In this document: piece by piece, positions 4,691 through 46,983 of the stretch | Numbering within the stretch: the first letter of the stretch is position 1 | Layout of the letters: every line of letters starts with the position of its first letter | Assembly: GCA_001001345.1 (NCBI GenBank) | Contig: LCKI01000004.1 | Span: 1 to 46,983 of the forward strand | Source: Parcubacteria group bacterium GW2011_GWC1_45_14 | Lineage (GTDB): Bacteria > Patescibacteriota > Minisyncoccia > Moranbacterales > GWC2-37-73 | Direction of reading: 5' to 3' | Length of the DNA stretch: 46,983 nt | Notes under the pieces: generated by a model | The model's database searches: none | What the model saw: the letters and a program-made list of their open reading frames with translations, nothing else | What the model was told of the DNA's origin: nothing | Program-made: the position numbers and the translations under genes

Positions 4691-4758
4691 ATGTTTTTCT
4701 TACCCAAAATAGGGCTTTTATGGTAATATTAAGGCGTAAATAGTAACATCGAAACGAT

Positions 4759-5798: not shown

Positions 5799-5804
5799 AA
5801 TTTC

Positions 5805-7487
5805 CTATTTCCACACCCTGCTCGTCTTGATATACCATTTACTGATGTCCGCAAACCTCCAGGACGGAGCGTTTATGTTGACCACTTCGTTTCCTTTTAC
5901 CGCCTTACTTATCGGATAGAGATAATATTGGCTGTATAGAAAAATGGCAGGATTCTTCTCTTTGATAATGTCACTGAATTGCCTGTAGCTCTCGGCTCGT
6001 TTGTTATCATCGGTTTCCTGTCTGATGGACTCCAAAAGCGTGTCCGCATCCTTGTTGTCGAAAAGGGCGAGATTGAGTCCCGGGTCGCGCTTGTTGGAGG
6101 AATGCCAAAAGGAATAAAGATCGGGATTGAAGCTCAATGCCTGTCCGAACAAAAGACTTGGGTATTCGCGGGTCCTGATATAATTTTGCTGGAAATCGGA
6201 AACCGACAATACTTTTATGTCGACTTTAGCTCCGATCTCACCCCACTGCCTTTTGAGAAGTTCGGCATTTTCCATGAGCTCCGGCCAATCGGTCGTCACT
6301 ATTTCGAATTCAAATCTGTTTCCGTCCTTTTCCCTGACACCGCTCTCATTGTTAAGAGACCATCCTGCTCCATCCAAAATCCTTCTGGCCTCCTCTGGAT
6401 TATAAGCATAATCACCGCTCATATCAGTATGACCATTCATTTGCGGGAAAAGCGGCGAATACAAAGGGATCCCCTTTCCGCCCAGCACGGTATCGACTAT
6501 CTCCTGCCTATTCACGCTTATAGCGAGAGCTTTTCTCACTTCGTCATAAGCCAAGGCGACGCTTTTCGTCTGATTGATGAAAAGAGCGAAATACCTCGGA
6601 ATCACCAACTCCTTGACCTGGATGTTCTTGGAAGAGCTGACGTCCCCGAGTTTTTCCGGAGAAACATCGCTTATACCGGCCACCTCTTTCTTTTTGAAAG
6701 CGCTTATGAGTGCGCTGTCATCCGGATAAAAATTGAAGTTGATCCTTGAGATATATGGCGCTCCCCCGTGGTAACCTTTGAAAGCCGACAGTTTGTATGT
6801 GATGATATTCCCGTTTGAATCCTTCTGGAAATCGGCGAACATATATGGTCCTGATCCGATAGGTCTTAGGTTTTTTTCCGCCAAGGCGAAACGTTCAGCG
6901 GGAATGTCCTGCCAAATGTGTTTCGGCAAAATTCCCACGGTCAAATTCTCCAGAAAACCGAAGTATGGATTTTTCAATTCGAATTTGATGGAGCTCTCGT
7001 CAACTTGGCTCACGGTCACCCCTTGCCAGTTCTGCCTAAGCGGGCTCTTGTATGTCGGGTCCTTGAGTATATTGAAAGTAAAAACGACGTCTTCGATATC
7101 GAGATTCTGTCCGTCATGCCATTTCGCGTCCTTCCTGATATAAACGGTGTACACCTTCTTGTCTTCGGAAACCTCATATCTCTCAGCCAAATCGTTTCTT
7201 ATTTTTCCCTCCTTGTCATAACCGAAAAGACCGCTGTAAACGAGGGCCACCAAATCAGCGTCGGAATCGCTGGTTTGGGAAAGCAAAGGGTTTACATAGA
7301 TAGGTTGCCCCACCATGCCTTCCGCATATTCACCCCCCAGCTTGGGGATCGGCACCGTGAAACCGAAATACACATGCTTCAACCAGAATACGGATGAAGC
7401 CATTATGATTAAAACAAAAAAAGACACCACGAGTTTTTCTCTAAAACTCAGTACTTTGCTCACGGCAAGCCAATTTCCAGGAAGCAA
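5805..7487 (-). CDS. Extracellular solute-binding protein, family 5 (peptide/oligopeptide type)
   Basis: About 560 aa. An N-terminal membrane anchor (LVVSFFVLIIMASSVFWL, about residues 19-36) is followed by a periplasmic-binding fold of the DppA/OppA type: GGEYAEGMVGQPIYVNPLL, then KIRNDLAERYEVSEDKKVYTVYIRKDAKWHDGQ, then VEDVVFTFNIL-like IEDVVFTFNIL and KNPYFGFLENL. It probably captures peptides at the cell surface, a plausible need in an auxotrophic CPR cell. No lipobox is seen, so the uncleaved TM would hold it. No permease or ATPase lies next to it. The start is uncertain: the track uses a TTG at 7487, and codons upstream stay open to near the secG stop. It follows secG by about 46 bp. Confidence 0.88.
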   Translation of the reverse strand: MLPGNWLAVSKVLSFREKLVVSFFVLIIMASSVFWLKHVYFGFTVPIPKLGGEYAEGMVGQPIYVNPLLSQTSDSDADLVALVYSGLFGYDKEGKIRNDLAERYEVSEDKKVYTVYIRKDAKWHDGQNLDIEDVVFTFNILKDPTYKSPLRQNWQGVTVSQVDESSIKFELKNPYFGFLENLTVGILPKHIWQDIPAERFALAEKNLRPIGSGPYMFADFQKDSNGNIITYKLSAFKGYHGGAPYISRINFNFYPDDSALISAFKKKEVAGISDVSPEKLGDVSSSKNIQVKELVIPRYFALFINQTKSVALAYDEVRKALAISVNRQEIVDTVLGGKGIPLYSPLFPQMNGHTDMSGDYAYNPEEARRILDGAGWSLNNESGVREKDGNRFEFEIVTTDWPELMENAELLKRQWGEIGAKVDIKVLSVSDFQQNYIRTREYPSLLFGQALSFNPDLYSFWHSSNKRDPGLNLALFDNKDADTLLESIRQETDDNKRAESYRQFSDIIKEKNPAIFLYSQYYLYPISKAVKGNEVVNINAPSWRFADISKWYIKTSRVWK

Positions 7488-7533
7488 TAATTTGAACTTA
7501 TCCTTGGTACTAATAGCATTTGAAATTAGCTGA

Positions 7534-7755
7534 TTAACTTCCGATCACTTTGACACTGGCGATGGATAGCGCGATAAAAGCTACAGCCAGGGCGATCGAT
7601 CCATGGAAGAGAAATTTTTCAATCCCCCTTTTCGTGTAATAACCCCCGAAATCCCCTCCGAAGGCGGCACTCAGGCCGCTTCCCCTGTTTTGGAGCAGGA
7701 TCGAGATGGTGAGAAGTATGGCTACGACTAGTTGCGATATGATGATGAATTTCAT
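7534..7755 (-). CDS. secG: Protein translocase subunit SecG
   Basis: Small inner-membrane partner of SecY/SecE that assists preprotein translocation. The 73-residue protein has the family layout: TM1 (FIIISQLVVAILLTISILLQ), the conserved loop NRGSGLSAAFGG, then TM2 (FHGSIALAVAFIALSIASVKV). Length and topology are typical. It lies directly upstream of the solute-binding protein on the same strand. A promoter at 7801-7828 and a TATAAT just before the start suggest its own transcription start. Confidence 0.93.
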   Translation of the reverse strand: MKFIIISQLVVAILLTISILLQNRGSGLSAAFGGDFGGYYTKRGIEKFLFHGSIALAVAFIALSIASVKVIGS

Positions 7756-7800
7756 TTTTTCTTGTTTTGCCTATTATATCCGGCCTTTGCTGCAAGCTTT

Positions 7801-7828
7801 AATTTAGCAAATGGCGGACGAAAGTCAA
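7801..7828 (-). promoter_or_regulatory. Putative secG promoter
   Basis: Minus-strand TTGACT, 16-bp spacer, TAAATT. A second perfect TATAAT (7773-7778) lies closer to the ATG but lacks a good -35, so two starts are possible. Confidence 0.5.
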
Positions 7829-7924
7829 GCGAAAAGGGCGCCGATGACTCCCTTGTGGGAAACTTTTTCCCGATCCGCATATCCCAATCCTACACCAAAA
7901 ACATATCCGAATCAAGGTGAAAAA

Positions 7925-8869
7925 TCAGCTAAGATCTTCTATTTTTTTCTTAAATTCGTCGAACACTTTAGGACCCTTCAGTTCAGGCAAAAAGACCAGC
8001 GCTTCATCGGAAGCCTGGATGAGGCTTCCCTCTTGATGGGTTTTCGGGTTTCGCATTATTTTCCTTTTTTCCAATTTCCTCAGGATGTCCTCCAAAAAAG
8101 AAGCTCCCAATAGCGCCTCCCCGACCGATCTGACGCTTTTAGAAAAGAAACTGTCCTGGACCATATTGACCGGATTTATTTCCGAGGGCATGTAATTGGG
8201 CTTTATGGCGCTTATCCACCTGTTCTGGAGTTGGAATTTGCGGAAAACTTCAAAGCCGAAAACAGGCTGCATGAAAAAATATTCATTCGCGCTGTAGAGG
8301 TCCTTGGTCGAGATCTCCAGACTGCTGTCGGTAATGAAATAATTCAGGCACACCCTGTCCTGAATCTTTTTCCCATATCTTCTCTTCCCTATGAAATGGG
8401 AAACCAGTGTCACCAGTGTCCTGCCCATCCAGATATGCCCAGATCCAAGCACTACCAACAAATCCCAATCGCTCTTGGGCCTGGCGCTCTTCATGGCTAG
8501 TCTCCCCGTGATGCCTACCATCCTGACAAAAGGAACGAACCTTAAAAGCGAGATTACAGATCTCAGTCTCTTTGCCTTGGAAAAAGAAATTTTCACGCTC
8601 TCAATTCTTTTGCTGACTAAATCCTTTTTTCCTTTGAGAAAATAGAATCCGTTATATTCCTCTACGAACCTGATAAGGGGATCCTGTTTGAGTTCATGGA
8701 GAATCTGATGGAGACTGGCTTCCCCGTGACTGCTCTTTTCATAATAGTCGGACCGCATAAGATATTTCCATATCTCAAAGGAAGTCAGCGGATAGGAAAA
8801 AACGTCGTAATAAGCGACGGTAGCCAGGATATTTTTTGAAATTTCTTTCGAATTCCTCAACGCTTTCAT
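7925..8869 (-). CDS. Nucleotidyltransferase-fold protein, function unknown
   Basis: 314 aa. The central motif GITGRLAMKSARPKSDWDLLVVL (about residues 118-140) has the G-[ST]-x(9+)-D-x-D layout of the pol-beta/MNT nucleotidyltransferase superfamily, preceded by a helical, winged-helix-like N-terminus (residues 10-80: AYYDVFSYPLTSFEIWKYL). No membrane segment is evident. Proteins with this layout are common unknowns in CPR genomes, and the target of nucleotidyl transfer cannot be told. Its ATG shares an A with the TAA of the AI-2E gene upstream (TAATG), so translation is coupled and the two genes are in one operon. Confidence 0.7.
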   Translation of the reverse strand: MKALRNSKEISKNILATVAYYDVFSYPLTSFEIWKYLMRSDYYEKSSHGEASLHQILHELKQDPLIRFVEEYNGFYFLKGKKDLVSKRIESVKISFSKAKRLRSVISLLRFVPFVRMVGITGRLAMKSARPKSDWDLLVVLGSGHIWMGRTLVTLVSHFIGKRRYGKKIQDRVCLNYFITDSSLEISTKDLYSANEYFFMQPVFGFEVFRKFQLQNRWISAIKPNYMPSEINPVNMVQDSFFSKSVRSVGEALLGASFLEDILRKLEKRKIMRNPKTHQEGSLIQASDEALVFLPELKGPKVFDEFKKKIEDLS

Positions 8870-9900
8870 TATTCTTGTGTTTCCTTTTTGTCTATTATAT
8901 CCCCGATGAAAATACCTACCGCCGTGGCCAGGGGAATGGCCAGAATGGTCCCCATGACGCCCCCTAGTTTTGCTCCTATCAAGAGCACCAGGATCACGGC
9001 TACCGGGTTGAGCCCCACAGCCTTTTTCATGATCTGAGGAACCAGGATATGGTTTTCAATCTGCTGGATAATTATGAAGGATCCCAGGACTATCAAACCG
9101 ACTACCGGCGAAATCAAAAATCCCAAGAGGGTCGCGATCGTCGCCGAGATTATCGGCCCTATATATGGAATGACTTCCAAGAGTCCCGCGACGAGAGCTA
9201 TCAAGAGAGCGAACGGCACATTGAATGCGGAAAGTACGGCGAAACTCATAGCGAACACCGCCAGCATCAAAATAAACTGCCCGAAAACCCAACGACCGAT
9301 TTTATTATGGATCCTGTCGAAAAATGACAAGACGTACTCCTGATGATCCCTGGGGGTTATGGTCATAATGAACCTCTTCATCCCCTCTTCTTTGACCAAC
9401 ATATAAAAAGTCAGCGAAAGTACGACTATGACAGATACGAAGAAATTGACCACTCCGACCGTTCGCGAAAAAAGCTGTTCGGAGGATTGGAAGGCATTGG
9501 AGAACATATCCCTGATAAAACTTTCAGCATTGAATTGGAGGCCGTGCGAGGCCGCATAGGATTCTATGCCTAGGAAAAGTTGGTTGGTCCTTTCAGCGTA
9601 TTGCGGAATCTTCTCGTTGAAATCCTGGAATTGTCCGACCAATGGAGGAATCAGAAAGGAAATGGCGGTTCCGATCAGAGCGATGGCCGCTATGTATATC
9701 ATAAAGGTCCCCAATGGCCTAGGGATCTTCTTTTTTTTCATCCAATCCACCAATGGGTCGAGCGTGGCCGTCAGGATAACTGAAATGAAAAATAACGCCA
9801 AAATATCCCGCACGAAATACAAAAGCCATAAAGCCAGTACGATAAAAATCGTTCTGACCACGATACCGGTGGATATTTCAATGGGCCTTCTTTCTATCAT
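8869..9900 (-). CDS. AI-2E family transporter (PerM-like), copy 1
   Basis: About 343 aa multi-pass membrane protein. The early IVVRTIFIVLALWLLYFV helix, ALFFISVILTATLDPLVDWM, the long extracytoplasmic segment after LIPPLVGQF, and the C-terminal LLEVIPYIGPIISATIATLLG and QIENHILVPQIMKKAVGLNPV are hallmarks of this family. Members export signals, ions or organic molecules, and the substrate is unknown here. I prefer the ATG at 9900 (MIERRPIEIS) to the track's TTG at 9909. It overlaps the next gene by one base and follows the broken M16 peptidase by 35 bp. A second family member is at 30084-31142. Confidence 0.9.
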   Translation of the reverse strand: MIERRPIEISTGIVVRTIFIVLALWLLYFVRDILALFFISVILTATLDPLVDWMKKKKIPRPLGTFMIYIAAIALIGTAISFLIPPLVGQFQDFNEKIPQYAERTNQLFLGIESYAASHGLQFNAESFIRDMFSNAFQSSEQLFSRTVGVVNFFVSVIVVLSLTFYMLVKEEGMKRFIMTITPRDHQEYVLSFFDRIHNKIGRWVFGQFILMLAVFAMSFAVLSAFNVPFALLIALVAGLLEVIPYIGPIISATIATLLGFLISPVVGLIVLGSFIIIQQIENHILVPQIMKKAVGLNPVAVILVLLIGAKLGGVMGTILAIPLATAVGIFIGDIIDKKETQE

Positions 9901-9935
9901 ATTTTTCAAAATTAAGCTTTGCGTCTATGGGGATC

Positions 9936-10253
9936 CTATATCTTCAACATCTTCTCCAATTCCTTCGCGTTCTTGTGCGGACCGATGACAGCCAGGTTCA
10001 ATTTGGAATCATGGAAAACATCCCTCGCGACCCTCAAAATGTCCTCGGTCGTTATCTTGTCGATTTTTTCAAATATGTCTTCCAGCGTCATTATCTTTTC
10101 TTTGCTAACTTCCTGTTCGACGAAAAACATCGCAACCTCGTCCGATGCCTCGAATCCCATCACGCTCTTTCCCTTGATATAATCCTTGGCTTTTTGAAGT
10201 TCTTTTTCCCCCACTTTTTCCGTGGCGATTTTCCCGTATTGTTCCAGGATCAA
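9936..10253 (-). pseudogene. M16 peptidase, C-terminal fragment
   Basis: 105 codons matching the tail of M16 zinc peptidases: LILEQYGKI, then VGEKELQKAKDYIKGKSVMGFE, FFVEQEVSKEKIMTLEDIFEKID and KLNLAVIGPH. The frame opens at a TTG (10251-10253) that overlaps the TGA of the N-terminal fragment (TTGA). The roughly 20 residues that normally link the two parts are absent. It could be a coupled second subunit, but loss by deletion plus frameshift is simpler. Confidence 0.75.
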
Positions 10254-11143
10254 TCCTGATACATATCGGCGCTGGTGCGGACGTAATAGGCAAGCCCCCT
10301 TCTTTCACGGACCTCGATGAAAAGACGACTGCTCATGTTAGCCCCCAGGATGGTCGCCAAAAGTCCCAAGGCGAAACGGTCCGGATGGCTTTGATGATAG
10401 GCCCTGGTCCCCACGATTAACTGGGTCTGGTCGGTCTTTTTGTACTTAATTTTAAGCTGGGGTTTTTTCTGAGCTTCCTTCACTGTCTTTAGGGCCGGCT
10501 TTTTCCCATCCCGCATTCCGTCGAAATATTCCTTGACCTTGGTGATGACCTTTTCTTCGTTCATCTTTCCAGCCACACACACCACGGTGTCGCTGGCCAA
10601 ATAAAACTTGTCCATGAACTTCACGAAGTCCTTTCTCGAAAAAGCGGCTACGGTTTTTTTGTATCCAGTAATCTCCCTACCCAACGTAGTTTTTTCATAT
10701 AGGAGGTTTTCAAACTCATCCCCGATCGTCCGCATTGGCATATCCTCATACATACTGATCTCCTGGATTATAGTGCCTTTTTCCCTTTCGATTTCTTCCT
10801 TGTCCAATTTCGAATTCAAATACATATCCGAAACCACGTCCAGAGCTTTTTCGAAATGCTTGGCATCCACCTTGGCGTAATACCCAGTTTTGTCTTTGCC
10901 CGTAAAAGCGTTGAATTCTCCTCCGATGGAATCCAGTTCTTCGGAAATCACGAGCGTGTTCGGTCTTTTCTCCGTACCCTTGAAAAGCATATGTTCGATG
11001 AAATGGGAAAGTCCCGCTTCCCTTTCGCTTTCATATCTGGAACCCACTCCCACCATGACGGTGACGGTGACGGTCTTGGTTCCCTTCATAGGAATGGTCA
11101 TGATTCGAAGGCCGTTTTTTAACGTCGTTTTCTTGTAACTCAT
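10250..11143 (-). pseudogene. M16 family zinc peptidase, N-terminal fragment (split gene)
   Basis: 297 aa carrying the whole catalytic half of a processing-peptidase/insulinase-like protein. The inverted zinc motif HFIEH is in GLSHFIEHMLFKGTEKR (about residues 46-50), with the downstream glutamate in EREKGTIIQEI. The inactive-domain start (SRLFIEVRERRGLAYYVRTSADMYQD) then ends at a TGA. Normal single-chain members are about 410-430 aa, while the two pieces together give about 400 and lack the stretch after MYQD. The active site is intact, so a split but working enzyme is not excluded. The coding frame continues in the overlapping fragment at 9936-10253. Confidence 0.8.
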
Positions 11144-11230
11144 ATCTGATTTTCTAAAATTATTTTCTTATTATCAAATGAAGCGAGGGAAATGGAGACT
11201 TGTTTTCATTTCCCTGCCTACCGGCAGGTA

Positions 11231-11278
11231 GCCGAGCGAGTGCGGATGACAAATTAGCCAATACCGATTTATTTATTC
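11231..11278 (-). repeat. Dispersed repeat R3, copy 1 (at NIF3 stop)
   Basis: On the minus strand it reads GAATAAATAAATCGGTATTG...CTCGGC and aligns over about 48 bp with 37536-37582 on the plus strand (roughly three quarters identical). It overlaps the last codons of the NIF3 gene. A small hairpin, TACCTGCCGGTAGG, follows. Confidence 0.65.
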
Positions 11279-12234
11279 CTGCTGATGCGGATAAGTCCAG
11301 AGCATGGCACTATTTCGATCCCTTTTTTCTCGAGCTCGTCCAGGAAAAGGTTCATACCGATGGAGTCCGAAGATATGTGCCCGGCGATCACCACATTGAT
11401 ATTGGCCTTTTCAGCCTCCTGCTTATACTCCTCTTTCTGATGCATCGAGATTATCGTCCCGATTCCGGCCTGCGCCATCTTTTCATACATTTCTTTGCTC
11501 CCCGATGTGCCGCCAGTAATTTCAGTAAAGACTATTCTGCCCGTCCTGTTTTCCTCGGAACCTACGAAAATCGCAGGACCCGCTCCCATTTTGGCAGCCT
11601 CTTTATATTCGGGGATTTCCAGAAGAGACTTGATTATGTCGCCAACGTATTCCGGCTTGTCATCATTGATTTTCTTTTCCACGAATCTGGCCACCAAATT
11701 ATCCGCAGGCGTATGCACGTTCAAAAAATTCATCCCTAAGATCCTGGCTGAATCCACAACTTTATAGTGATTTTCCGGACTCAATCCCCTGTTGACCTCG
11801 CCGATCCTTTTTTTCATCAAAGCTTCGGCGACGTTGACAGGCACGCCGACCTGCGACAAGATATCCACCTGCAAATCCATTACTTCTCCCAAATCAGCCA
11901 GCGCTTTACCATCAGGATGATGCCCGATAACGGCATCGATGGGATTCTTCGGGTTATGGTTAGAATGATACCTGGCGATCATCATCTCCGCGCTGTCGAT
12001 ATCGACTCCGGCCAGCACTTTTTTGATTTCCTTGGATCCCCCATCGAAGTGGATCCTGCTGTCCATATACGGATTTTCCAGTCTTTCCGTATCGAAAATT
12101 TCCTTTTCCTCTTTGGAAAGTTTTTCATATTTTTCCTTTATCCTCTCAAGCTTCTTTTCGATCTGCTCTTTAGATCTGAAATCGGATTCCTTTCCCATTT
12201 TTATCGCTAATTCGAAAATCTCCAGTGTTGTCAT
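11269..12234 (-). CDS. NIF3-like protein (NGG1p-interacting factor 3 family)
   Basis: 321 aa. The NIF3/YbgI fold is a dinuclear-metal protein family often labelled GTP cyclohydrolase 1 type 2, with uncertain biochemical role. An N-terminal charged helical extension (residues 1-60) is followed by the core: VLAGVDIDS, AVIGHHPDGKAL (metal ligands), FLNVHTPADN, GTSGSKEMYEKMAQAG and the C-terminal AGHISSDSIGMNLFLDELE. All expected His/Asp/Glu-bearing motifs are visible. There is no SD before the ATG at 12234. A MITE-like element separates it from the upstream U32 peptidase gene. Confidence 0.85.
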   Translation of the reverse strand: MTTLEIFELAIKMGKESDFRSKEQIEKKLERIKEKYEKLSKEEKEIFDTERLENPYMDSRIHFDGGSKEIKKVLAGVDIDSAEMMIARYHSNHNPKNPIDAVIGHHPDGKALADLGEVMDLQVDILSQVGVPVNVAEALMKKRIGEVNRGLSPENHYKVVDSARILGMNFLNVHTPADNLVARFVEKKINDDKPEYVGDIIKSLLEIPEYKEAAKMGAGPAIFVGSEENRTGRIVFTEITGGTSGSKEMYEKMAQAGIGTIISMHQKEEYKQEAEKANINVVIAGHISSDSIGMNLFLDELEKKGIEIVPCSGLIRISRNK

Positions 12235-12248
12235 ATTTTTGTCTCGAT

Positions 12249-12380
12249 TAGGACTTACGCGCTTTTTTTCTTAAAATTTCTGACAAATATTGTTTTTTGC
12301 GCACTGCCGGCCGACCCGAGAGGGAAAGGCAAGCAAAAAAAGAATATTTGTCAGAAATTTAATCAAACGCGCAACTTCTA
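12249..12380. mobile_element. MITE-like palindromic element, copy 1 (132 bp)
   Basis: It starts TAGGACTTACGCG and ends CGCGCAACTTCTA, so the ends are imperfect inverted repeats beginning and ending in TA. Inside is a perfect 18-bp inverted repeat (AAATTTCTGACAAATATT) around a core GCACTGCCGGCCGACCC. The same element is at 27447-27580. No transposase is encoded, so it would be a non-autonomous element. It could also terminate the U32 transcript. Confidence 0.7.
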
Positions 12381-17565: not shown

Positions 17566-18276
17566 CTACAGTGGGACGCTGCACATTGATACCTCATACA
17601 CCACGTCTTTTTTCTCCACCACTATCCTCCATCCTTTTTTCTGAGCGACTTCCTTGAGATTCTCATTGGGATTGAAAGCTATCGGATATTCCACCAGATC
17701 CAGGAAGCTGGCATCCGATTCCGTGTCGCCTATTCCATATGAACCCTCCAGCGTCAAGTTGTTTTCCTTCGCGTATCTTTTCACAACGTCGCCTTTGTTC
17801 TTAATAGGCTCGGCCTCATATCCCCCGGTGTACACATCCCCGTTCGTTTCATAAATGCTCCCAAAAACTTTGTCGAAATTCAAATGTTTCTTGTTGTACT
17901 CCTCGACGATTTCAATAGGGGAACCGGAAATGGCAATAATGTGATATCCCTCCCTTTTAAGTTTCCTGATCAGGTCCTCCGCGAAAATATAAGTCCTGTC
18001 CTTATGGAACGATATGACCATCTCGCTGGCCCTGACAACGTCCTCCCTTTTGCATCCCTTGATATGCTTTTCAAAGAGATCCACCAATCCGAGCCTGTAC
18101 GATTCATATGTCCCCTTGTGCTCGAGCCAATTGGTATAGAGAAGCACTATCTGATCCCTGACTTTTCTTGGAAATACGTTTATCCAGGAGAGTTCATTGA
18201 TGAGTTCGAAATGCAAATTCTTACGGAATATCGTCCCGTCTATATCAAAAACCGCCAGTTTTTTTTGTTCAGTCAT
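17566..18276 (-). CDS. HAD-superfamily phosphatase (subfamily IB, SerB-like)
   Basis: 236 aa. Motif I is VFDIDGTIFRK (nucleophile and acid Asp), motif II is IIAISGSPIEIVEEY, the motif III lysine lies around PIKNKGDVVKRYAKE, and motif IV is YGIGDTESDASFL. A helical cap occupies about residues 20-95. This layout matches the IB group that includes phosphoserine phosphatase and lipid-phosphate phosphatases, and the substrate cannot be read from sequence. An AAAAGGAG SD lies 5 nt before the ATG. It follows the histidine kinase gene by 33 bp and may belong to its operon. Confidence 0.9.
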   Translation of the reverse strand: MTEQKKLAVFDIDGTIFRKNLHFELINELSWINVFPRKVRDQIVLLYTNWLEHKGTYESYRLGLVDLFEKHIKGCKREDVVRASEMVISFHKDRTYIFAEDLIRKLKREGYHIIAISGSPIEIVEEYNKKHLNFDKVFGSIYETNGDVYTGGYEAEPIKNKGDVVKRYAKENNLTLEGSYGIGDTESDASFLDLVEYPIAFNPNENLKEVAQKKGWRIVVEKKDVVYEVSMCSVPL

Positions 18277-18309
18277 GATGCTCCTTTTTATTTACTTCTT
18301 ATATTGGCA

Positions 18310-19656
18310 TTATACCTTTTTCAACTTCAAAGTGAAATGGGATCCGACACCTTCGATGCTCTCGACCGTAAGGTCCCCTCCTATCTTCAAGGCTATCTCC
18401 CTTGAAATCCAAAGCCCCAAACCGGTGCCTGAAATTTTTGAAGTCTCCGCGCTTTTTATTCTATAAAATTTAGAGAAGAGATTTTTCATATTTTCGGCCG
18501 ACATGCCCATTCCTGTGTCAGCCACAGTTACGTACGCGAATTTACTATCCTGCTTGCTTTTTATCTCCACTTTTCCGGAAGGAGTGTATTTTATAGCGTT
18601 ACTTAAGAGATTTACCAGCACCTGCTTGACTCTCTCAGGATCGGCACTGACGACTAGCGCATCTTCCGCTCCATTGATGAGCTCCAGATTTTTCTGTTGC
18701 GCCGTTATCTTCATCTCATCGGCGATACCTTTTATTATGGCACTCAGTTCAATATTCTCCAGATTGATAGGCATCCTATTTTGTTCCAACCTGGAAACCT
18801 CCAGAAGGTCCTCAACCAGATCCCGAAGCCGGGTCGCGGATATATCCATGTTCTCAAGGTAACGGCGCTGGTTCCTTATTTCCTCCGAATCAGGCTTCCC
18901 CAGCAAATTGTTATCAAGCAGGCTTATATATCCCTTGATAGCAGTCAACGGACTTTTCAACTCATGGCTGGCCATGGAAATAAAGTCGTCTTTCATCTTA
19001 TCTATCTCTTCCAACTTCGTCGCTTTGAGTTCGTACTTAAAAAGTCTGGCATGATTCATCACCAGCAGAAGAACGATTACCAAAGAGGCTATGGCGACGA
19101 AATACACCCTGTCTATGATCCCCTGCACGAATTTGTCATGCTCGGACAAAGACAGCCGGAAAAGAGCTATTCCTTTTTTATTCCCTTCATCATCCCTGAT
19201 CACGTCGCCGATATTCCAGAACCGCCCTTGGCCGTCATGATCCAAAAAAGCTATCGCTTCCCCCTTGCTCCATAAAATAGCATACAGCGTATTTTGATTC
19301 TCGATATTTGCACTATCCCCGGTCATGGCGACAATTGAAAATTCCCCACCACCTTCTCCGGGTTTCAATATGGCGATATCTTTTATTTCGGAATCCTGGC
19401 TTTTTATAGCCTCTATCTTTGACTGGAGATATTCATCGTCCTCCATAAGATCAGCACCAAAGACCCTTAGAACATTCTCAGCCAAGAGCGCTTTGCTTTG
19501 AAGGAGCTTGTCCGTAGAACTTTCGAACTTCCTCAAGGAATAATAACTGTTGAAAAATATTATCGCAGTCACAGCGACGATCAAAACAAAAGAGTACAAA
19601 ATCGTCGGATTTTTTCTGATGAAACCTATTCCCCTGCTAATCAAATCCTTTATCAT
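18310..19656 (-). CDS. Membrane sensor histidine kinase
   Basis: 448 aa. Two TM helices (about residues 18-37 and 184-200) enclose an extracytoplasmic sensor domain of about 145 aa that resembles a PAS/Cache-like fold ([29 protein letters not shown]). A short linker leads to the HisKA H-box [19 protein letters not shown] (His at about 231), then the N-box [10 protein letters not shown]1 VADTGMGM, F-box LFSKFYR and G2 GTGLGLWIS. All ATPase boxes are intact. Its ATG overlaps the stop of the TSP3-repeat surface protein (ATGA), so the two are translated together. No response regulator follows. Confidence 0.95.
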
Positions 19657-21155
19657 ACGGCGTGTTTATGATTAATTATTCCCACTACAGCCAACGCTAT
19701 GCTTAAAAATATCACCACCGCAAGGAAGGAGAAAATCATGAAATTGTTTTTGGATTTTTGCACGGGCGACTGGTTCTTGATCACCTCCTGCGCTTGAACG
19801 CCGGATATGACCGTTGCCGCTTCAGCCGTTTTGACGAACCTCAGCGGTTCGCTTTTGCCGGCTATTTTACCGGTGCTGTCGGTTACTGCCACGTATGCTT
19901 CATGCTCTCCATCCTCCAGTTGCTTGTCCAATTCATATATCCAATTTCCGTCGGCATCAGTCTTCACGGTCACCACGATAGGATCACTGAAAATATATAT
20001 CGTCACAAAAGAGTTCGGGAGGCCCTTTCCACTAAGCGACAACGCCTTGTTTCCCGTATCCTTTTGGGCCAATTCGACGTTGCTTATGAAATATTCCTTT
20101 TTTATTTCACCTTTTTCTCTTGGATCTTCGAAAACGATCTTGTCGCTTCCATCTCCCGCTGAAAACTTAAGCGGATCGAAACCCTTTCCGATCTCATCCC
20201 CGTCAGAAAATCCATCCTTGTCCGTATCAGGATTTTTGGGATCAGTTCCTAGGCGGACTTCTTCGCCGTCAGAAATTCCGTCTTTGTCGGTATCAGCGGA
20301 TTCCGGATTCGTTCCCAGGTAAATTTCCCTTTCTTTACTCAGTCCGTCGCCATCCAGATCTTCCCTTAGGCTATAATCATAGGAGGGCTGGACAGCTGGA
20401 GCGGTTACATCGGAAGTTGCGACTTGAGTATCGTTGTTTTTATACCCAGCATCAGTCGTATTTTCAATTGGAACTGAAGACGTGGCGCCATTGTCGGTCG
20501 TCGAGGTGCCCTCCTGCCGCAATGCGGCAGGAAAAATATCCAAATAATAATCTGAACCGCTTTTATATTTCCCATCCCAACCGATTGTCACTTCGGCTAC
20601 GAAATAATACCTGCCGTTCAAGGATTCCGACAAGGTGTCGACATAAAAATCACATGTTCCCAGAGACTGTTTGCAGCCTTGGAAAACACCTATACTTTTG
20701 GATCCGGAAGATCCGTCCTTGCTGACAAATAATTCGGCAGCATTCGCATTCGGAGAATAAACGCTTACATACATATAATTCGCCGTTATCTTCGAGCCGC
20801 TCGATGGAAAGCTTATTTTCACTGTCTTATCAATATCTTCGTATTGGGTTGGAGCCGTCTGGGTCGCCATTTTCGCGCCGCACTGCACCGGATTAAATCC
20901 GGAAACGTAACAACTCCATTTCCATCCATCGGTCGTACTGGTGAATCCCGTCGCCATCCCGCTTAAACAGAGAGCATCACTGCTGGGAGCGACGGCAAGA
21001 ACGCCCCCATTGTCCTTTCCGCACTCCGGAGGAGCTGATATCGTAGCGCTATTCGTAAGGGTCTCGGCCAAAAGCTGACCTGCCAAAAGAAAACTGGCTA
21101 TTCCCAAAAATCCCATGCCAATTAAAAATAACGCGTGACGTTTTAAAGTGTTCAT
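19653..21155 (-). CDS. Surface protein with Ca-binding TSP3 repeats, membrane anchored
   Basis: 500 aa. An N-terminal signal/TM (about residues 8-30, ending AGQLLAETL) leads to an exported region with Cys pairs (ECGKDN, ALCLSGM, WSCYVSG, VQCGA). A beta-sandwich-like domain follows (about 100-220). Three thrombospondin-type-3/calcium motifs then lie at about 265-330 ([34 protein letters not shown]). After that comes a bacterial Ig-like domain ([18 protein letters not shown] ... [11 protein letters not shown]) and a C-terminal TM ([22 protein letters not shown]). Both ends are thus membrane-linked. It is translationally coupled to the downstream histidine kinase, which suggests a surface sensor or ligand partner; that role is an inference. 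Confidence 0.75.
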
Positions 21156-21181
21156 TTTTTATTTTTTTAAAAAAATCCCTT

Positions 21182-21667
21182 TTATTTAATCTTACCGCAT
21201 ATTTCATAAGCGACAACTCCGAACGCCACCGAAACATTCAGAGATTTCTTCTTTCCTCTCATGGGAATTTCAACAATGGCGTCGCATTTTTTCAAAATCC
21301 GTTTGTCTATTCCCTTAGGCTCGTTGCCGACAATCAGCGCCACGTCGGATTGCGGGACAAACCTTCCATAATCGATACTTTCTTCATCCTGCTCAAGCGC
21401 TACTATTTTCACACCTTCCTTTTTTAATTTTTCCAATAATTTTCCGATTGAAACAGCTTTCTCCCATTCGACATTTTTTTCCGCTCCCAGAGCCGTCTTA
21501 GCGATCATTTTCTGCGCGTCCGTGAGATAAGGGGCGTTTTCCTTGGCCGGAGAAGGAGAATAGCCGGTGAGATAAATCTTTGCCGCCCCTACGCCGTCTG
21601 CGGTGCGGAATATCGAGCCTATATTGTGCGCGCTTCTTATGTTGTGAGCTATGACGATGAGTTTCAT
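21182..21667 (-). CDS. SpoU/TrmH-family RNA 2'-O-ribose methyltransferase
   Basis: 161 aa SPOUT-class enzyme. Motif 1 HNIRSAHNIGSIFRTADGVGA is at the start, motif 2 is ALIVGNEPKGIDKRILKKCD, and motif 3, which forms the SAM-binding knot, is VEIPMRGKKKSLNVSVAFGVVAYEI. The length matches the short single-domain members that methylate tRNA (TrmL/TrmH-like), but the target nucleotide is not determinable. It lies 26 bp upstream of the TSP3-repeat protein on the same strand. Confidence 0.92.
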   Translation of the reverse strand: MKLIVIAHNIRSAHNIGSIFRTADGVGAAKIYLTGYSPSPAKENAPYLTDAQKMIAKTALGAEKNVEWEKAVSIGKLLEKLKKEGVKIVALEQDEESIDYGRFVPQSDVALIVGNEPKGIDKRILKKCDAIVEIPMRGKKKSLNVSVAFGVVAYEICGKIK

Positions 21668-21693
21668 TATCAGTTACTAATTATCAATTATCA

Positions 21694-21786
21694 GGCTCGC
21701 GCGTTTGACTGAAGAAGACGATGAGTATTTGCGCTTCGGCGCATAGAGGCTCGTCGGAATCTGAAGGCAAATGCGCGAGTCTTCAG
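21694..21786. repeat. Palindromic intergenic element
   Basis: Outer arms GGCTCGCGCGTTTG and CAAATGCGCGAGTC are nearly complementary, an inner hairpin is TTTGCGC-TTCG-GCGCATA, and CTGAAGA/TCTTCAG adds a third arm. It fills the gap between the L,D-transpeptidase and the methyltransferase. It resembles no other element in the window in sequence. Confidence 0.5.
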
Positions 21787-21808
21787 AATTACGACATCCT
21801 TCTTGCCG

Positions 21809-22924
21809 TCACTTATGAATAATCACGGGGGTCCCTATTTCAGCCCAATCATATATCTTTCCGGCTGAACCGGTTCCGAGCCTCACGCATCCGTGTGAAA
21901 CGGGAATTCCCAAATGGTTCGCTCCTTCCTTATACCCTCCTGGCCATTCCGGGAGCTCATGGATACCATATTCTCCAGAAGGGGTTATCGCCATCCAATA
22001 AGGCATAAACAAGCTGTATTTTTTTGACCAAGGCTTGAGAGCCTTGTTCTCAATCTTGAAAGATCCCTCTGGGGTGTCCATTCCTGCTTTTCCCGAGGAA
22101 ATCAAATAGGTTTCCACAATCTTTCCATTTTCAAAAATAACCATGACCTGACTCTTGAGATTTATATCTATATATCTCCCCTCTGCGATCCTTGGCTCCG
22201 TATAGTTTTTCGCCTGGGAAAGCCTGACCGTGATGTCCTTGTCCCAATTTTTCAATTCCTCCGGCTTGGTTTCAAAATATGATTCGAATGTTTTTTCATA
22301 ATCCTCCTCTGGAGAATTCTCATGTTTTACATATATTTTCACGTCGTATCGCTTCCCCTTCTGAAGATTCCCTTTCGACAATATCTTCACGCTGGTTTTC
22401 TGCTCATTCAATTGAGAAACGAACTCCCCCATCGGATCGATTACAAATTTCACATTGAAACCGTCCAGAGGTCTGTCAAAATTCACGGAAATAGGATCTT
22501 CTATATCGATAAGCACGTTTTTTTCTCCTTCTGAAGGGACAATGGAAACCACCTCCGGATAACCCTCGGTTTGAAAATCGACGCTTCCACGAAAACCGAT
22601 CCCGAAAATATTACGCCCATTGTTTATATTCAAAGAATATTTGGTGTCCCGTTTCCAGTTTCCATTGGGAACAAGGGCAAAGGAATCATTCCCATCGGAC
22701 CACCTCAGGGAAAAATCTTTCGCAGGCTCCATTTTTAAGGACTCTTCCACGCTTCCAGGGGAAACTCTTCCGGAAAAATTAAATGTTATTTCTTCGTCCA
22801 GCTTCACATTTTCATTTTTGGAAAGCGAAACCTTTGTTTCCAAAAACTCCGTATTGCTTTTGACGTAATTGAATATTCCAAATAGCCCCAATCCCGAAAA
22901 AAGGACCATCAAAAAAATCTCCAT
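21809..22924 (-). CDS. L,D-transpeptidase (YkuD) with Ig-like N-terminal domains
   Basis: Cross-links peptidoglycan stems or attaches proteins to the wall, outside the membrane. I prefer the ATG at 22924 (MEIFLMVLFSGLGLFGIF), preceded by AAGAGG at good spacing, over the GTG at 22960. An N-terminal TM anchor is followed by two SbsA/Big_5-like Ig domains (KNENVKLDEEITFNFSGRVSPGSVEESL; VLIDIEDPISVNFDRPL), then the YkuD domain from ARYIDINLKSQ-like GRYIDINLKSQ to the end. The catalytic motif HLGIPVSHGCVRLGTGSAG contains His and Cys, and MPYWMAI and GIHEL are conserved. Length from this start is about 371 aa. Confidence 0.93.
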   Translation of the reverse strand: MEIFLMVLFSGLGLFGIFNYVKSNTEFLETKVSLSKNENVKLDEEITFNFSGRVSPGSVEESLKMEPAKDFSLRWSDGNDSFALVPNGNWKRDTKYSLNINNGRNIFGIGFRGSVDFQTEGYPEVVSIVPSEGEKNVLIDIEDPISVNFDRPLDGFNVKFVIDPMGEFVSQLNEQKTSVKILSKGNLQKGKRYDVKIYVKHENSPEEDYEKTFESYFETKPEELKNWDKDITVRLSQAKNYTEPRIAEGRYIDINLKSQVMVIFENGKIVETYLISSGKAGMDTPEGSFKIENKALKPWSKKYSLFMPYWMAITPSGEYGIHELPEWPGGYKEGANHLGIPVSHGCVRLGTGSAGKIYDWAEIGTPVIIHK

Positions 22925-22978
22925 GCAAACCCTCTTAATATGCTGCGCTGAATACTCCACCGTAATTAGAAACCTTCC

Positions 22979-23989
22979 TTAGTTATATAGGATTTTGGCT
23001 TGATCCCAGACTTCCGGATGATCTTGGGTGGCTTTTAGCCAATACCACCATTCCACTCCCCATACGTAGATATCCGTTATGCCGGTTTTTCTGGCGTATT
23101 CAATGTTGTCCTTGAGCTTGGAGGCGTTCATGGATTCAAACTGCCTTTTCAAGGGAAATCCAGTCGTCCATCCTTCTATCCATGGCTCTCCCTGAAGTTC
23201 TATTACCGAAACGTTCTTTTGGCCGACCAGCGTCCCGACCATCGCTTTTTTTATCTTGAAAAAATTAGGCCCGAGAGGATATTTCCAAAAACCGTATTTT
23301 TCAGTGAAAACTTCCCGATACATGGTAGTTCCGAAATGATCACCCCTTTTGGCTGCCCGAAGCCAGATACTCAGCTCCCCGCTATCGGTAAGCATGATAC
23401 CTTTCTCAGGATCAATTCTCCTGACCATCTCAATTTCCTTGTCTAAAAGTTCCACGTCCAAGGGAGGACAAATGCCGAATCCCAAAAAAGGCTCGTTTTC
23501 AACCTGCCAGATGGAAATGGCGGGATGATCCTTGTATCTGAAAACCGTGGTCTCCACGAAACTCAGCAATTTTTCCTTTCTCTTGGCATCATCTTCCTTG
23601 GCCCACTGCGGTATATGGCATTCCGGCCAACGTGGAACCTTTTGCCCAACAGCCAGAACTATTTCAGCATTCCTTTTGCCAGCTTCGTCCAATTGCCAGT
23701 CCAACTCGGAAAAATCATATTGTCCTTCGGTTTTTTCCACCAAATCCCAATAAGCGGCGATGCGGATCTTTTTCACTCCCAAATCATCCATGGTTGCCAA
23801 ATAGGCCTCCTTCCAATCAAGGCCGATATCCTGCGCATAGCGCGAAGAAAAGGTCACTCCCAAATTAGCCTCCTGCTCGGGAAGAGCGACGGGAAGATTG
23901 AAATAGGCGAATATGCAAAGCGCCAAAGTGGTCAATCCGGCGAATAATAACGCGAGTGTCTTTACGACACGCCTCAGAACATTTTTCAT
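22979..23989 (-). CDS. Membrane-anchored glycoside hydrolase (clan GH-A, cellulase-like)
   Basis: 336 aa. An N-terminal TM (TLALLFAGLTTLALCIFAYF, about residues 11-30) precedes a TIM-barrel domain. The pattern LGVTFSSRYAQDIGLDWKEAY, IRIAAYWDLVEKTEGQYDFSELDWQLDEA and SIWQVENEPFLGFG places the acid/base Glu in the NEP motif, and VSVIELQGEPWIEG provides the likely nucleophile Glu. This two-Glu layout is that of clan GH-A enzymes such as GH5. The exact family and polysaccharide are unknown. The C-terminal ITDIYVWGVEWWYWLK closes the barrel. It lies 54 bp upstream of the L,D-transpeptidase start chosen here, consistent with a cell-wall or glycan role. Confidence 0.82.
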   Translation of the reverse strand: MKNVLRRVVKTLALLFAGLTTLALCIFAYFNLPVALPEQEANLGVTFSSRYAQDIGLDWKEAYLATMDDLGVKKIRIAAYWDLVEKTEGQYDFSELDWQLDEAGKRNAEIVLAVGQKVPRWPECHIPQWAKEDDAKRKEKLLSFVETTVFRYKDHPAISIWQVENEPFLGFGICPPLDVELLDKEIEMVRRIDPEKGIMLTDSGELSIWLRAAKRGDHFGTTMYREVFTEKYGFWKYPLGPNFFKIKKAMVGTLVGQKNVSVIELQGEPWIEGWTTGFPLKRQFESMNASKLKDNIEYARKTGITDIYVWGVEWWYWLKATQDHPEVWDQAKILYN

Positions 23990-24011
23990 AAATGAAATTT
24001 AAAATAATAAA

Positions 24012-24998
24012 TTAGGACGTCAAATAAAAAAATCCGGGACTATTGACCGAAAGCATCCAAAGGCCGACGCCTATGAACACTATCGCTAAAAATTTCTGCA
24101 TCCAATCGCTGAATTTTAATTTTTCCCGATAAATATGATGATGCCAAACAGAAAGCATCGAAACCAGAACCAAAACGAAAACGAATTGGATGCTTCCGAC
24201 GGCATTGACCGCTGAAACTGAGCCTCTGGAAATAGCCAGCACGATCAAAAACGACCCCGTGCCTGCCATTATCTTATTGGCCGTAAAAAGAGCTCCGGTA
24301 GAAGCGACCCTTCCCCTGGAGGATCCGCTCTGATCAAATGATTTCATTATTTGCTTTCGAAATACCGGGAAAAGCAAAAGACTCATGCCGGCCAAGAAGA
24401 ATCCGATCCTGTTCCACACGAAACCGTTAATAAAACCAGTTCCGTTGAAGACTTCCTTGAGAAGACCCAGGGATACGGCCTGGGAGACTCCTGATATTAC
24501 AGAATATCTGAAGCCCTTGAAAAGTTTCATATTATGAATAGGCAGATCAAAGGATATCAAAAAACCCCCGGAGGCCAAGATAAGTACCGCCACCACGCCC
24601 ATAACTCCCAACCTTTCATCTAAAAAAAGAAAGGCATAGACGACGGAAACCAGCGGGATGATCGTTCCGACCAAGGGTGCTACCCTGGAGATCTCATTTT
24701 CTTGGACCGCCCTATATAAAGCCAAAAGGCCGTAGATAAAAAATATCCCGGAAAAAATAGCATATGCGACTATACGTGTCCCCGGAAAAGAAAATCCGAA
24801 AGGGATGAAAGCTAGCGCGAACAAACTGAAAACGGAAACGTAAAAAGCATATACAGCCGGTTTGGAGATGCGCGAATGCAACAGATATTTATCCAGCACC
24901 GCAACCACTGCGATCAAAAGATATCCTCCGACTGCGATGGAGAGCCAATCAAAAGAAAGAAAAAAAATACTTATATCAGAAATGGAAAAAAGAGACAT
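24012..24998 (-). CDS. EamA/DMT-family transporter
   Basis: 328 aa with about ten TM helices in two EamA halves. The first half ends in the pattern ENEISRVAPLVGTIIPLVSVVYAFLFLDERLGVMGVVAVLILASGGFLI. The second carries FTANKIMAGTGSFLIVLAISRGSVSAVNAVGSIQFVFVLVLVSML, with the second-repeat signature altered. Such proteins export metabolites, and the substrate is unknown. The ATG at 24998 begins immediately at a hydrophobic helix. Confidence 0.88.
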   Translation of the reverse strand: MSLFSISDISIFFLSFDWLSIAVGGYLLIAVVAVLDKYLLHSRISKPAVYAFYVSVFSLFALAFIPFGFSFPGTRIVAYAIFSGIFFIYGLLALYRAVQENEISRVAPLVGTIIPLVSVVYAFLFLDERLGVMGVVAVLILASGGFLISFDLPIHNMKLFKGFRYSVISGVSQAVSLGLLKEVFNGTGFINGFVWNRIGFFLAGMSLLLFPVFRKQIMKSFDQSGSSRGRVASTGALFTANKIMAGTGSFLIVLAISRGSVSAVNAVGSIQFVFVLVLVSMLSVWHHHIYREKLKFSDWMQKFLAIVFIGVGLWMLSVNSPGFFYLTS

Positions 24999-27446: not shown

Positions 27447-27580
27447 TAGGGCTTGCGTGTTTTGCTTCTTAAAATTTACGATAAAATATCGTTTTTTGCG
27501 CACTGCCGGCCGACCCGGGAGGGAAAGGCAAGCAAAAAATATATATTTTGCCGGAAATTCATTCAAACGCGTAACTCCTA
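27447..27580. mobile_element. MITE-like palindromic element, copy 2 (134 bp)
   Basis: It begins TAGGGCTTGCGTG and ends CGCGTAACTCCTA and has the same core as 12249-12380 (GCACTGCCGGCCGACCC, then GAGGGAAAGGCAAGCAAAAAA). Its inner arms are more decayed than in copy 1. It lies downstream of lysozyme-like gene 2. The 79 bp between it and the stop at 27660 show nothing definite. Confidence 0.7.
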
Positions 27581-35904: not shown

Positions 35905-35915
35905 AAATTTATATT

Positions 35916-36011
35916 CTACGAATTACGAATTTTACGAAACTACGAAACGGCATTCTATAATGAAACGGATATCCATAGGATTCGTACATTCGTAAAATTC
36001 GTACTTCGTAG
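35916..36011. repeat. Inverted TACGAAT-word repeat, copy 2
   Basis: CTACGAATTACGAATTTTAC with following GAA words on the left, and the inverted series ending TTCGTAG on the right, pair over 22 of 23 bases and partly beyond. It shares arms with 5674-5798, but the spacer has no terminator. It lies in the typA leader. Confidence 0.8.
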
Positions 36012-43979: not shown

Positions 43980-44125
43980 GGTGACATTGGTCATTAGCAG
44001 TAAGACGAGTCCTTAGTCATAAGCCATATGTTTTCAGAAATAGGTTGCAGGTCACCGTCATTTTATTACGTTAACCTATTACCTGTGACCAATGACTAGA
44101 CCTACGGCCGATGACCAATGTTACC
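43980..44125. repeat. Inverted word array upstream of obg
   Basis: GGTGACATTGGTCAT (43980-43994) pairs with ATGACCAATGTTACC (44111-44125), and the inner ATAGGTTGCAGGTCAC pairs with GTGACC...AACCTAT words. It ends 21 bp before the obg start. Confidence 0.6.
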
Positions 44126-44146
44126 AATGACTTGTATTTCAATATT

Positions 44147-45121
44147 ATGCTCATAGATGACGTAAAAGTTAGAATGACAGCCGGAAAGGGCGGCAAGGGA
44201 GCCGTCAATTTCAACAAGAATCTGATGGAATTGGGACCCACCGGAGGAAGCGGAGGGCATGGAGCCAGCATCTGGGCGGAGGGTATTTCCGATCTTGGAG
44301 CTTTAGGGCAATTCCGTTTCAAGAAAGAATTCCACGCCGAAGACGGACGCGACGGACGTGGACAATTCCGCGACGGTCCTGACGGAGAAGACCTGGTCCT
44401 TCGGATGCCGGTCGGAACAGTCATCCATAATCTGACCAGCGGACAGTCCCAAGAAATCACGAAGGTCGGGGAAAAAATCCTGGTCGCCAAAGGCGGTAAT
44501 GGAGGAAAAGGAAATTTCTTGTTCCGCAGCGCCAAGAACACTTCGCCTGAGCAATACCAAGAGGGCCTTGCTGGTGAAAGTTTCGACGTGCGATTGGAAC
44601 TCAAAATGATCGCCGACGTCGGCTTCGTGGGGCTCCCTAACGTCGGAAAATCCAGCCTGCTCAACGAACTTACCAATGCGCACAGCAAGGTAGCCAACTA
44701 CCGCTTCACGACGCTGGAGCCGAATTTGGGGACATACTACGGCCTCATTTTAGCTGACATCCCGGGACTCATCGAAGGGGCCTCTGAAGGAAAAGGCTTG
44801 GGCCACAAATTCCTCAAACATATTGAGAGAACCAAAGTTTTGTTCCATTTTCTCTCGACCGGATCGGAAGATTTGCTGGCGGATTATGAAACCATCCGAA
44901 AGGAACTCGGCGCGCACAATCCGGAACTGCTGGCAAAACCCGAGCACATCCTGATCAGCAAGACCGATATGGTCACCCCGGAAGAGCTCAAGGAAAAAAT
45001 CAAATCGCTCAAAAAACTGAAAAAGGAAATAACCCCTATCTCCATCCTGGACGAGGAGAGTATGGAGAAGGTGAAGAAAATTTTGAATAAAATCGGGGAT
45101 GAAAAAACGGCCACTAACTGA
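44147..45121 (+). CDS. obg: GTPase Obg/CgtA
   Basis: Essential ribosome-assembly and stress GTPase. From the ATG at 44147 (MLIDDVKVRMTAGKGGKG) it has about 324 aa. The Gly-rich Obg domain includes GGSGGHGASIWA, DGRDGRGQFRDGPDGEDLVLRMPVGTVI and AKGGNGGKGNFLFRS. The G domain has GFVGLPNVGKSSLLNELTNA, FTTLEPNLGTY, DIPGLIEGASEGKGLGHKFLKH and SKTDM (a variant of NKxD). No C-terminal OCT domain is visible. The track start at 44111 lies in the word-array repeat and is rejected. Convergent with the FN3 gene. Confidence 0.96.
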   Translation: MLIDDVKVRMTAGKGGKGAVNFNKNLMELGPTGGSGGHGASIWAEGISDLGALGQFRFKKEFHAEDGRDGRGQFRDGPDGEDLVLRMPVGTVIHNLTSGQSQEITKVGEKILVAKGGNGGKGNFLFRSAKNTSPEQYQEGLAGESFDVRLELKMIADVGFVGLPNVGKSSLLNELTNAHSKVANYRFTTLEPNLGTYYGLILADIPGLIEGASEGKGLGHKFLKHIERTKVLFHFLSTGSEDLLADYETIRKELGAHNPELLAKPEHILISKTDMVTPEELKEKIKSLKKLKKEITPISILDEESMEKVKKILNKIGDEKTATN

Positions 45122-45251: not shown

Positions 45252-46982
45252 TTACCGCTGCGCCCATCCGAAGATGTCTTGGAAGTTGTTGACGATGATC
45301 TGGATTATATTCTCTTTCCGCTTCGGGGTGAGGAGGGCGAAGTCTCCGGATTTGGCCTCGTTGCCTGCCGCGTCCACCGAGATGGCGTTGAAGTAATAAA
45401 CCGTTCCCGCTTTGAAGGAAGTGATGACTGCGATATGCGAGGTGGTCATGACGTCCGAGACATTGACTTGGGTTTCCTTTCCGGCCTTTCCTTCCTTATA
45501 CACCAGCTTGGTGTCGGCGCTCTCATCCGTCTTCCAGCTGATGATGGCCTGGACCTTATCGTTCTGAGCCAAGGCGCTGTCCGTTCTGACCTGCTCGATC
45601 TTCGGAGCGTTTTCATCGCTCGAAGTCTTGAAGTTTTGGAAGGTCTCCTCGGTCTCATTTCCATCTTCATCGCGAACCTTGAGTTTGAGTCCGAATTCAG
45701 TTCCCGATTCCAAGTTTTTCAGGACCAGTTCATGCTTGGTGGCGAAGTCCGGCTTTCCTTGGACTCCGGAATTCTCCTCGTCGTCCGCGTCCGTGTATTC
45801 CACCAGAGTGTCGGTCGGCACGTTCGTCGTAAAGGTTATCTTGGCCCCGTGCTCCGTGATCTCGTCGACTTTGAAGCCTGAGATCTTCGGAGGCGACTTT
45901 GGCTCGAAAGTGTTGTCATTGGAAGCGAACAGGTTTCCATTGGCATCTTCCCCTAGGACGCGGAAGTGGTACGTCTGACCGGATTGAAGATCCGAAATGG
46001 TTATCTCATGCTCCTTGGTCTTGGTCTTGCTTTCTTTCGTGTCCCCATAGGCCGTCGTGAGTCCGTATTCGACGACTGAGGTCGTTTCCTCCCCGGTTTC
46101 CCAGGTTATGGTCGCCTGATTCAATGCCTTGGAAAGGACCTTGACCGAGGATAGAGAAGAGGGCTCTTTGGTTGTGAATGAAGACTGCGCCGACTGGGCG
46201 ATGTTTCCCGTGGCATCGGAGGAAATCACCGAGAAGACGTATTTGGACGCCGGTATCAGATCATTGATCGTCACCGTATGCGCCGTAGAATAATTCTCAC
46301 TGCTCGTCAGCACCAAAGAGTCTCCGGCGATCTTATTGAAATCGCTGCCGTCCAAGCTGTACATCACAAGACTGTTCGCCTTCTCGTTCGTGTTCCAGGT
46401 CACGACCGCGCTTTCCCCTTTAAGATCGGAGATCGAGACCGAGCTTATCTCGGGAGCGGTAGAATCCCCGGAAGCGTCGATATCCCCCTGACTGAAAGCT
46501 TTGTCCGACGTTTCGAATTGATCCGCCAGGCTTGCCGGATTCAAATCCTCATCAAGACAAGAGATGGTGTAGTCATACGCCGTGTCCGGATATAGGATAT
46601 CAGTTATGGTGACGGTGTGGTTCTTAGTATAAGATCCGACGGACTCCGGTTTTTCTCCTTCATTCGTCGTGTCTTCCGGCCTCTTGTATGTAATCGAACA
46701 ATTGGCGTTCTGGTCCGTCCTGAATTCGATCACTGCCTTGTCATTGGTCGTCACGTCGTCGGAAACGAGGGTGACGGTCTGGAGCGCTCCGGTGGTGGTA
46801 AAGGTTAGGGAGCTGTCATCTGCATATGAAACGGTTTCATATACGGACGACAGCTCGCTAACCTTCACTACTACCGGAGCACTCTCGACCGTCACGCTCA
46901 TTTCCGACGATGTGACTACCAAGGACAAAGCGGTCATTGAATTCAGGACCGACCAGGCTGCCAAATGCTTCATTGAATACAA
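45252..46982 (-). CDS. Fibronectin type III repeat surface protein (5' end not in window)
   Basis: 576 codons are open to the window edge. From about codon 50 it carries successive FN3 domains, with linkers such as APEISSVSISDLKGESAVVTWNTNEKANSLVMYS, SVKVLSKALNQATITWETGEETTSVVEYG, KISGFKVDEITEHGAKITFTTN and KIEQVRTDSALAQNDKVQAIISWKTDESADTKLVY. It ends in a short basic tail after LLTPKRKENIIQIIV. Similar chains are exported adhesin-like or wall proteins. The first 50 codons are the antisense of a plus-strand FN3 segment (46831-46983), so true coding is only trustworthy from about 46833 leftwards. The terminator is at 45176-45204. Confidence 0.82.
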   Translation of the reverse strand: MYSMKHLAAWSVLNSMTALSLVVTSSEMSVTVESAPVVVKVSELSSVYETVSYADDSSLTFTTTGALQTVTLVSDDVTTNDKAVIEFRTDQNANCSITYKRPEDTTNEGEKPESVGSYTKNHTVTITDILYPDTAYDYTISCLDEDLNPASLADQFETSDKAFSQGDIDASGDSTAPEISSVSISDLKGESAVVTWNTNEKANSLVMYSLDGSDFNKIAGDSLVLTSSENYSTAHTVTINDLIPASKYVFSVISSDATGNIAQSAQSSFTTKEPSSLSSVKVLSKALNQATITWETGEETTSVVEYGLTTAYGDTKESKTKTKEHEITISDLQSGQTYHFRVLGEDANGNLFASNDNTFEPKSPPKISGFKVDEITEHGAKITFTTNVPTDTLVEYTDADDEENSGVQGKPDFATKHELVLKNLESGTEFGLKLKVRDEDGNETEETFQNFKTSSDENAPKIEQVRTDSALAQNDKVQAIISWKTDESADTKLVYKEGKAGKETQVNVSDVMTTSHIAVITSFKAGTVYYFNAISVDAAGNEAKSGDFALLTPKRKENIIQIIVNNFQDIFGWAQR

Positions 46983-46983
46983 A
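46683..46983. repeat. Long diverged palindrome in FN3 coding sequence
   Basis: Centred at 46833 (ATATGAAAC-G-GTTTCATAT). By my count the 150-bp arms match at about 120 positions, and most changes are at third codon positions. The right arm runs off the window, so its full length is unknown. Confidence 0.9.
46831..46983 (+). CDS. Inverted FN3 segment on the plus strand (runs off window)
   Basis: 51 codons read TVSYTDDSSLTFTTTGALST, then VTLISDDVTTKDKAVIEFRT and onward to FIEYK. The minus-strand copy reads VSYADDSSLTFTTTGALQT and so on, and about 42 of 50 residues are the same. No stop is seen before the window edge and no start can be assigned. It may be part of a second FN3 gene, an inverted piece of the same gene, or an assembly misjoin. 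Confidence 0.6.

Follow-up and report, generated by a model that had tools for sequence, protein, structure and literature searches.

The long inverted repeat that closes the window (the whole stretch of DNA analyzed, contig C4, 46,983 nt) is, with a probability of roughly 90%, a chimeric contig end and no genomic feature. Judged from sequence comparison, two homologous copies (paralogs or strain variants) appear to have been joined at a near-palindrome. The position of the repeat at the contig end, together with a colinear gene in a relative, makes an artifact by far the likeliest explanation. A preliminary description of this DNA had offered three causes, one of them a misjoin at the palindrome; the colinear ortholog, the contig-end position, and the break in similarity at the palindromic core all favor it over the other two, an inversion inside a repeat-rich adhesin gene and an invertible segment.

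The terminal inverted repeat and its assembly context

To define the repeat, we used an inverted-repeat search of the window, which returned arms at 46684-46832 and 46834-46982, each 149 nt long and 81% complementary, around a 1-nt center. Their score of 76.5 was the highest in the last 1,500 nt; 200 shuffled versions reached at most 10, and the next-best inverted repeat elsewhere in the window scored 27. Read outward from the center, the arms are identical at 120 of 150 nt and 42 of 50 amino acids, in agreement with the ~80% identity and ~42 shared residues counted earlier. Both encode one 50-residue segment, VSYADDSSLTFTTTGALQTVTL... on the minus strand and VSYTDDSSLTFTTTGALSTVTL... on the plus strand.

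The 30 nucleotide differences between the arms are distributed 5/4/21 over codon positions 1, 2, and 3, with no indels, and 16 of the differing codons are synonymous while 8 are not. This pattern bears out the earlier proposal that both arms evolved as protein-coding sequence, and the third-position bias implies that they diverged over a long period within intact genes.

The repeat makes up the last 300 nt of its contig; position 46983, past which the preliminary description had proposed to look, is the contig terminus. The host assembly (G000) is an 888-kb draft genome of a member of the Moranbacteria (Patescibacteria) in 32 contigs, and the 63 other contig ends of this genome served as the comparison set. 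Several contig-end pairs share exactly 99 nt, which points to the k-1 overlap expected when short reads are assembled with a de Bruijn graph at k = 100. The junction thus lies at a contig terminus in a fragmented short-read assembly.

Other repeats were observed in the window and in this genome. A 79-nt intergenic repeat is present at 12285-12363 and 27484-27562 (86% alike; core, GCGCACTGCCGGCCGACCCGrGAGGGAAAGGCAAGC), and the first copy is flanked by A/T-rich inverted arms. The core has four copies in the genome, all on the plus strand of contigs C3 and C4; it is absent from 19 relatives, and the repeat matched no Rfam family at gathering score. It is possibly a small nonautonomous mobile element or a structured RNA. 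Long inverted repeats at 5674-5798 and 35915-36011 are built of TCTACGAATTACGAATTTTACGAAAsTACGAA and have 32- to 35-nt pieces in common at 91 to 97%; those at 5674-5798 enclose a terminator-like hairpin. The last 99 nt of contig C3 are the exact reverse complement of a stretch ~500 nt upstream (816-914 versus 1402-1500, segment L066), a second fold-back contig end in this assembly and in line with an artifact at the end of C4; the upstream stretch holds a terminator hairpin, and the fold-back end had no match in the sister genome described below. Contig C23 opens with a perfect 32-nt palindrome, GGAGTCCGACTCCGATATCGGAGTCGGACTCC (positions 1 to 32, segment L054).

A giant FN3-repeat gene that is colinear in a sister genome

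The minus-strand frame at 45252-46838, with its stop at 45252, is the 3′ part of a gene for a giant FN3-repeat protein; it is open at the contig end, and the contig lacks its true coding sequence beyond 46838 in the upstream direction. The whole 576-aa frame matches fn3 (PF00041; 62.9 bits, E = 3.4e-17, cut-off of 25 bits) and also PF16656 (95.2 bits), which identifies an FN3 protein. The 50-residue arm alone matched no Pfam family, and its full domain is weakly FN3-like (PF16656, E = 0.0014, below every cut-off). Direct repeats in the last 1.5 kb are at most 18 nt long, so a tandem array of near-identical units was not found there. When the arm segment (query residues 1 to 50) was searched against the genome, it matched just its two copies on C4. 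The minus-strand open reading frame as called begins with ~48 codons (46982 down to 46839) that would be the antisense strand of a different copy; annotation should omit them. An open antisense frame through the plus-strand arm was considered as coding evidence and rejected, as the antisense of the intact gene in the sister genome is open there too.

The preliminary description had suggested comparing the same locus in related genomes. The nearest named relative, "Candidatus Moranbacteria bacterium GW2011_GWE1_49_15" (G001), belongs to the same genus, and on its contig C11 (LCPX01000011.1) the ortholog is a single open frame of 3,022 codons (3,022 aa; 3215-12280, minus strand, segment L025) that is unbroken at the point homologous to the center of the repeat. 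Across that point its protein reads ...YYLKITATDSILSTET|VSYIDDSSLTLTTTGAL..., and the gene is colinear across the junction. The minus-strand arm (46684-46832; VSYADDSS...) belongs genuinely to the 3′ part of the window's FN3 gene, corresponding to residues 2496 to 2545 of the ortholog, and is continuous with a 526-aa C-terminal part that is 82% identical to it. The plus-strand arm (46834-46983; VSYTDDSS...) comprises 150 nt of a second homologous copy, inverted and running to the contig end, and it maps to the identical residues 2496 to 2545. Its agreement with the G001 protein is 45 of 50 residues, that of the minus-strand arm 41 of 50. The arms had been described as paralogous FN3 units facing each other; they do not represent adjacent units of a tandem array but the same unit from two homologous gene copies.

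The flanks of the locus are syntenic. Downstream, and convergent with the FN3 gene, lies an Obg-type GTPase gene that we take from family knowledge to be obgE (44111-45121, plus strand); upstream, on contig C23, lies a gene that we likewise take to be dus. The two match the two flanks of the G001 ortholog at 82% and ~90% amino acid identity, respectively. Contig C23 ends within an open frame (18138-24290) that aligns up to residue 2466 of the G001 protein and stops 27 codons short of the ETVSY (ETV) of the window. Across the proposed link, identity to the G001 protein shows no abrupt change: the final windows of C23 have 60, 52, and 60%, and the opening window of C4 has 61%. The simplest native order is dus, the C23 frame, ~81 nt, the C4 frame, and obgE, with no space for a facing copy. 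Over 863 residues, C23 is only ~40% identical to the G001 ortholog, so the two contigs could carry separate family members in tandem instead of one gene. A tandem pair at the locus would alter the source of the plus-strand arm but would leave the verdict on the join unchanged.

The same C-terminal part is found in other giant FN3 genes of Moranbacteria (G001; bin-329, CAIMIV010000018/28), and the terminal motif KRKENIIQIIVNNFQDIFGWAQR is present in both FN3 genes of G001 (LCPX01000011.1 and, on contig C6, LCPX01000006.1). Genomes commonly carry at least two members of the family, and those lying near one another on one contig (G004, G009, and G011) always share direction. Hits in other genomes lie in continuous open frames, whereas the end of the window has facing copies, for which no counterpart was found in relatives among the matches listed.

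The probable join at the near-palindrome

A base-by-base comparison with the native G001 sequence at this position, GAAACGGTCTC, places the break. Both arms match it through the GAAAC beyond the center; past that point, just 13/49 and 16/49 nt agree, a background level. Each arm thus ceases to resemble the native gene at the far edge of an 11-nt near-palindrome, GAAACGGTTTC, at 46828-46838. This element, of the form GAAACsGTTTC and encoding the conserved ETV, is where we infer the join. The 19-bp palindrome of the preliminary description is indeed present at 46824-46842, but as 9 + 1 + 9 nt with an unpaired central G; its outer 4 + 4 nt follow from the likeness of the arms. Since GAAACsGTTTC is near-identical on both strands, one strand of one copy can continue as the opposite strand of another.

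These observations suggest the following course of events. The minus-strand gene itself is genuine and carries a native near-palindrome at the Glu-Thr-Val codons. At this element, either the assembly or a chimeric read that arose in library preparation or amplification would leave the minus-strand copy, follow the opposite strand of a second, ~80% identical copy for 150 nt, and then stop. In the cell, the gene most likely runs on from C4 across ~81 nt missing from the assembly to join the open frame at the C23 end. Reads would accordingly be expected to fail to support the join. The shared core of 11 nt (19 nt with the outer arms) is shorter than the usual minimum k of ~20, so a pure assembler error does not fully explain it, and a chimeric read may be needed; the chimera may have arisen either in vitro or in the assembler. 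Multiple displacement amplification is known to produce inverted chimeras via short complementarity (PMC1855051): Lasken and Stockwell (2007) found 85% of chimeras to be inverted, with complementarity of up to 21 bp (PMC1855051). The PDSM model likewise describes inverted joins at palindromes during library preparation (PMC10908179). As in those chimeras, two segments are joined here in inverted orientation at a short complementarity or palindrome; in contrast to them, which are reads of one sequence, the join lies at a contig end and its arms come from two diverged copies (PMC1855051, PMC10908179).

The leading alternative is that the head-to-head inverted duplication, or an inversion breakpoint, is real, being present in the organism or in part of its population and produced by palindrome-mediated template switching. 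The arrangement is present in the contig, both arms are coding-like, and template switching at quasi-palindromes is known to occur in vivo. We nevertheless consider this improbable, because the junction sits exactly at the contig end, the same-genus ortholog is colinear, the flanks on C23 and C4 are ordered as in G001, and relatives have no facing copies among the matches listed. It would also require two genes that begin at ETV and lack both a start and the N-terminal ~2,490 residues, although the arms bear the mark of long selection; the join must therefore be much younger than the copies. A more specific form of this alternative, a recent in vivo inverted duplication at the near-palindrome of the gene itself, confined to part of the population and yielding 5′-truncated variants, is somewhat less probable still. 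With the G001 gene colinear and whole, the earlier suggestion of an inversion inside a repeat-rich adhesin gene is not upheld.

Inverted repeats in repeat-rich surface protein genes can serve as substrates for inversion, and an invertible segment that makes an adhesin gene phase variable had also been suggested. Near-identical repeats enclosing a segment are not what is found here: the arms lie 1 nt apart and are 81% alike, a poor substrate at ~80% identity, and the lack of DNA between them excludes an invertible segment in its usual form. The gene is whole in the sister genome, and its neighbor on C4 is obgE and no recombinase, so we regard phase variation as very improbable. Although fold-back reads are common artifacts, the codon-position pattern refutes the idea that one error-bearing sequence was simply folded back on itself, against which the preliminary description had already rightly argued. 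Its probability is negligible, given 30 differences in 150 nt (21 at third positions, none of them indels) and a plus-strand arm that is nearer the G001 protein than the minus-strand arm is, as expected of two separately evolved sequences.

The second copy and its bearing on the FN3 family

If the chimeric contig end is accepted, the plus-strand arm would derive from a second copy of the gene. No remainder of such a copy was found elsewhere in the window's genome. In a family-wide DNA search, the plus-strand arm had full-length matches only in G000 and G001 and otherwise short, weak ones, and a search of viral contigs gave no relative. The C6-type paralog of G001 was tried as the source and rejected, as it is just 49% identical over 47 residues. 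Nor is there a C6-type gene at the matching place in G000, where the ABC-transporter gene on C17 (98% identical) has a different gene directly upstream. In G001, the C6 giant FN3 gene adjoins this ABC-transporter gene, and it is missing beside the G000 counterpart (L115, 1406-1900, versus L026, 1-715); the difference was taken to mean that an entire family member was gained, lost, or moved.

Two FN3 genes of bin-329 (L096 and L097) offer a model for the second copy. They are 80% identical in the arm segment, 96 to 99% identical over the last 320 residues, and ~40% identical upstream. On this pattern, a second copy in the window's genome would resemble the plus-strand arm, and assembly could have collapsed the 3′ end of that copy and that of the window into one; a co-occurring strain would fit as well as the source. 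Family members within one genome (bin-329 L096 and L097; G001 L025 and L026) are far more alike at their C-terminal ends than upstream, pointing to gene conversion or domain transfer in the 3′ region. Giant FN3 genes whose copies agree in the 3′ part but differ farther upstream are liable to break short-read assemblies.

Reading the repeat as a chimeric contig end removes a false lead for phase variation in this gene. It also exposes a trap: the broken ends of giant FN3 genes in Patescibacteria can mimic facing, selected gene copies.
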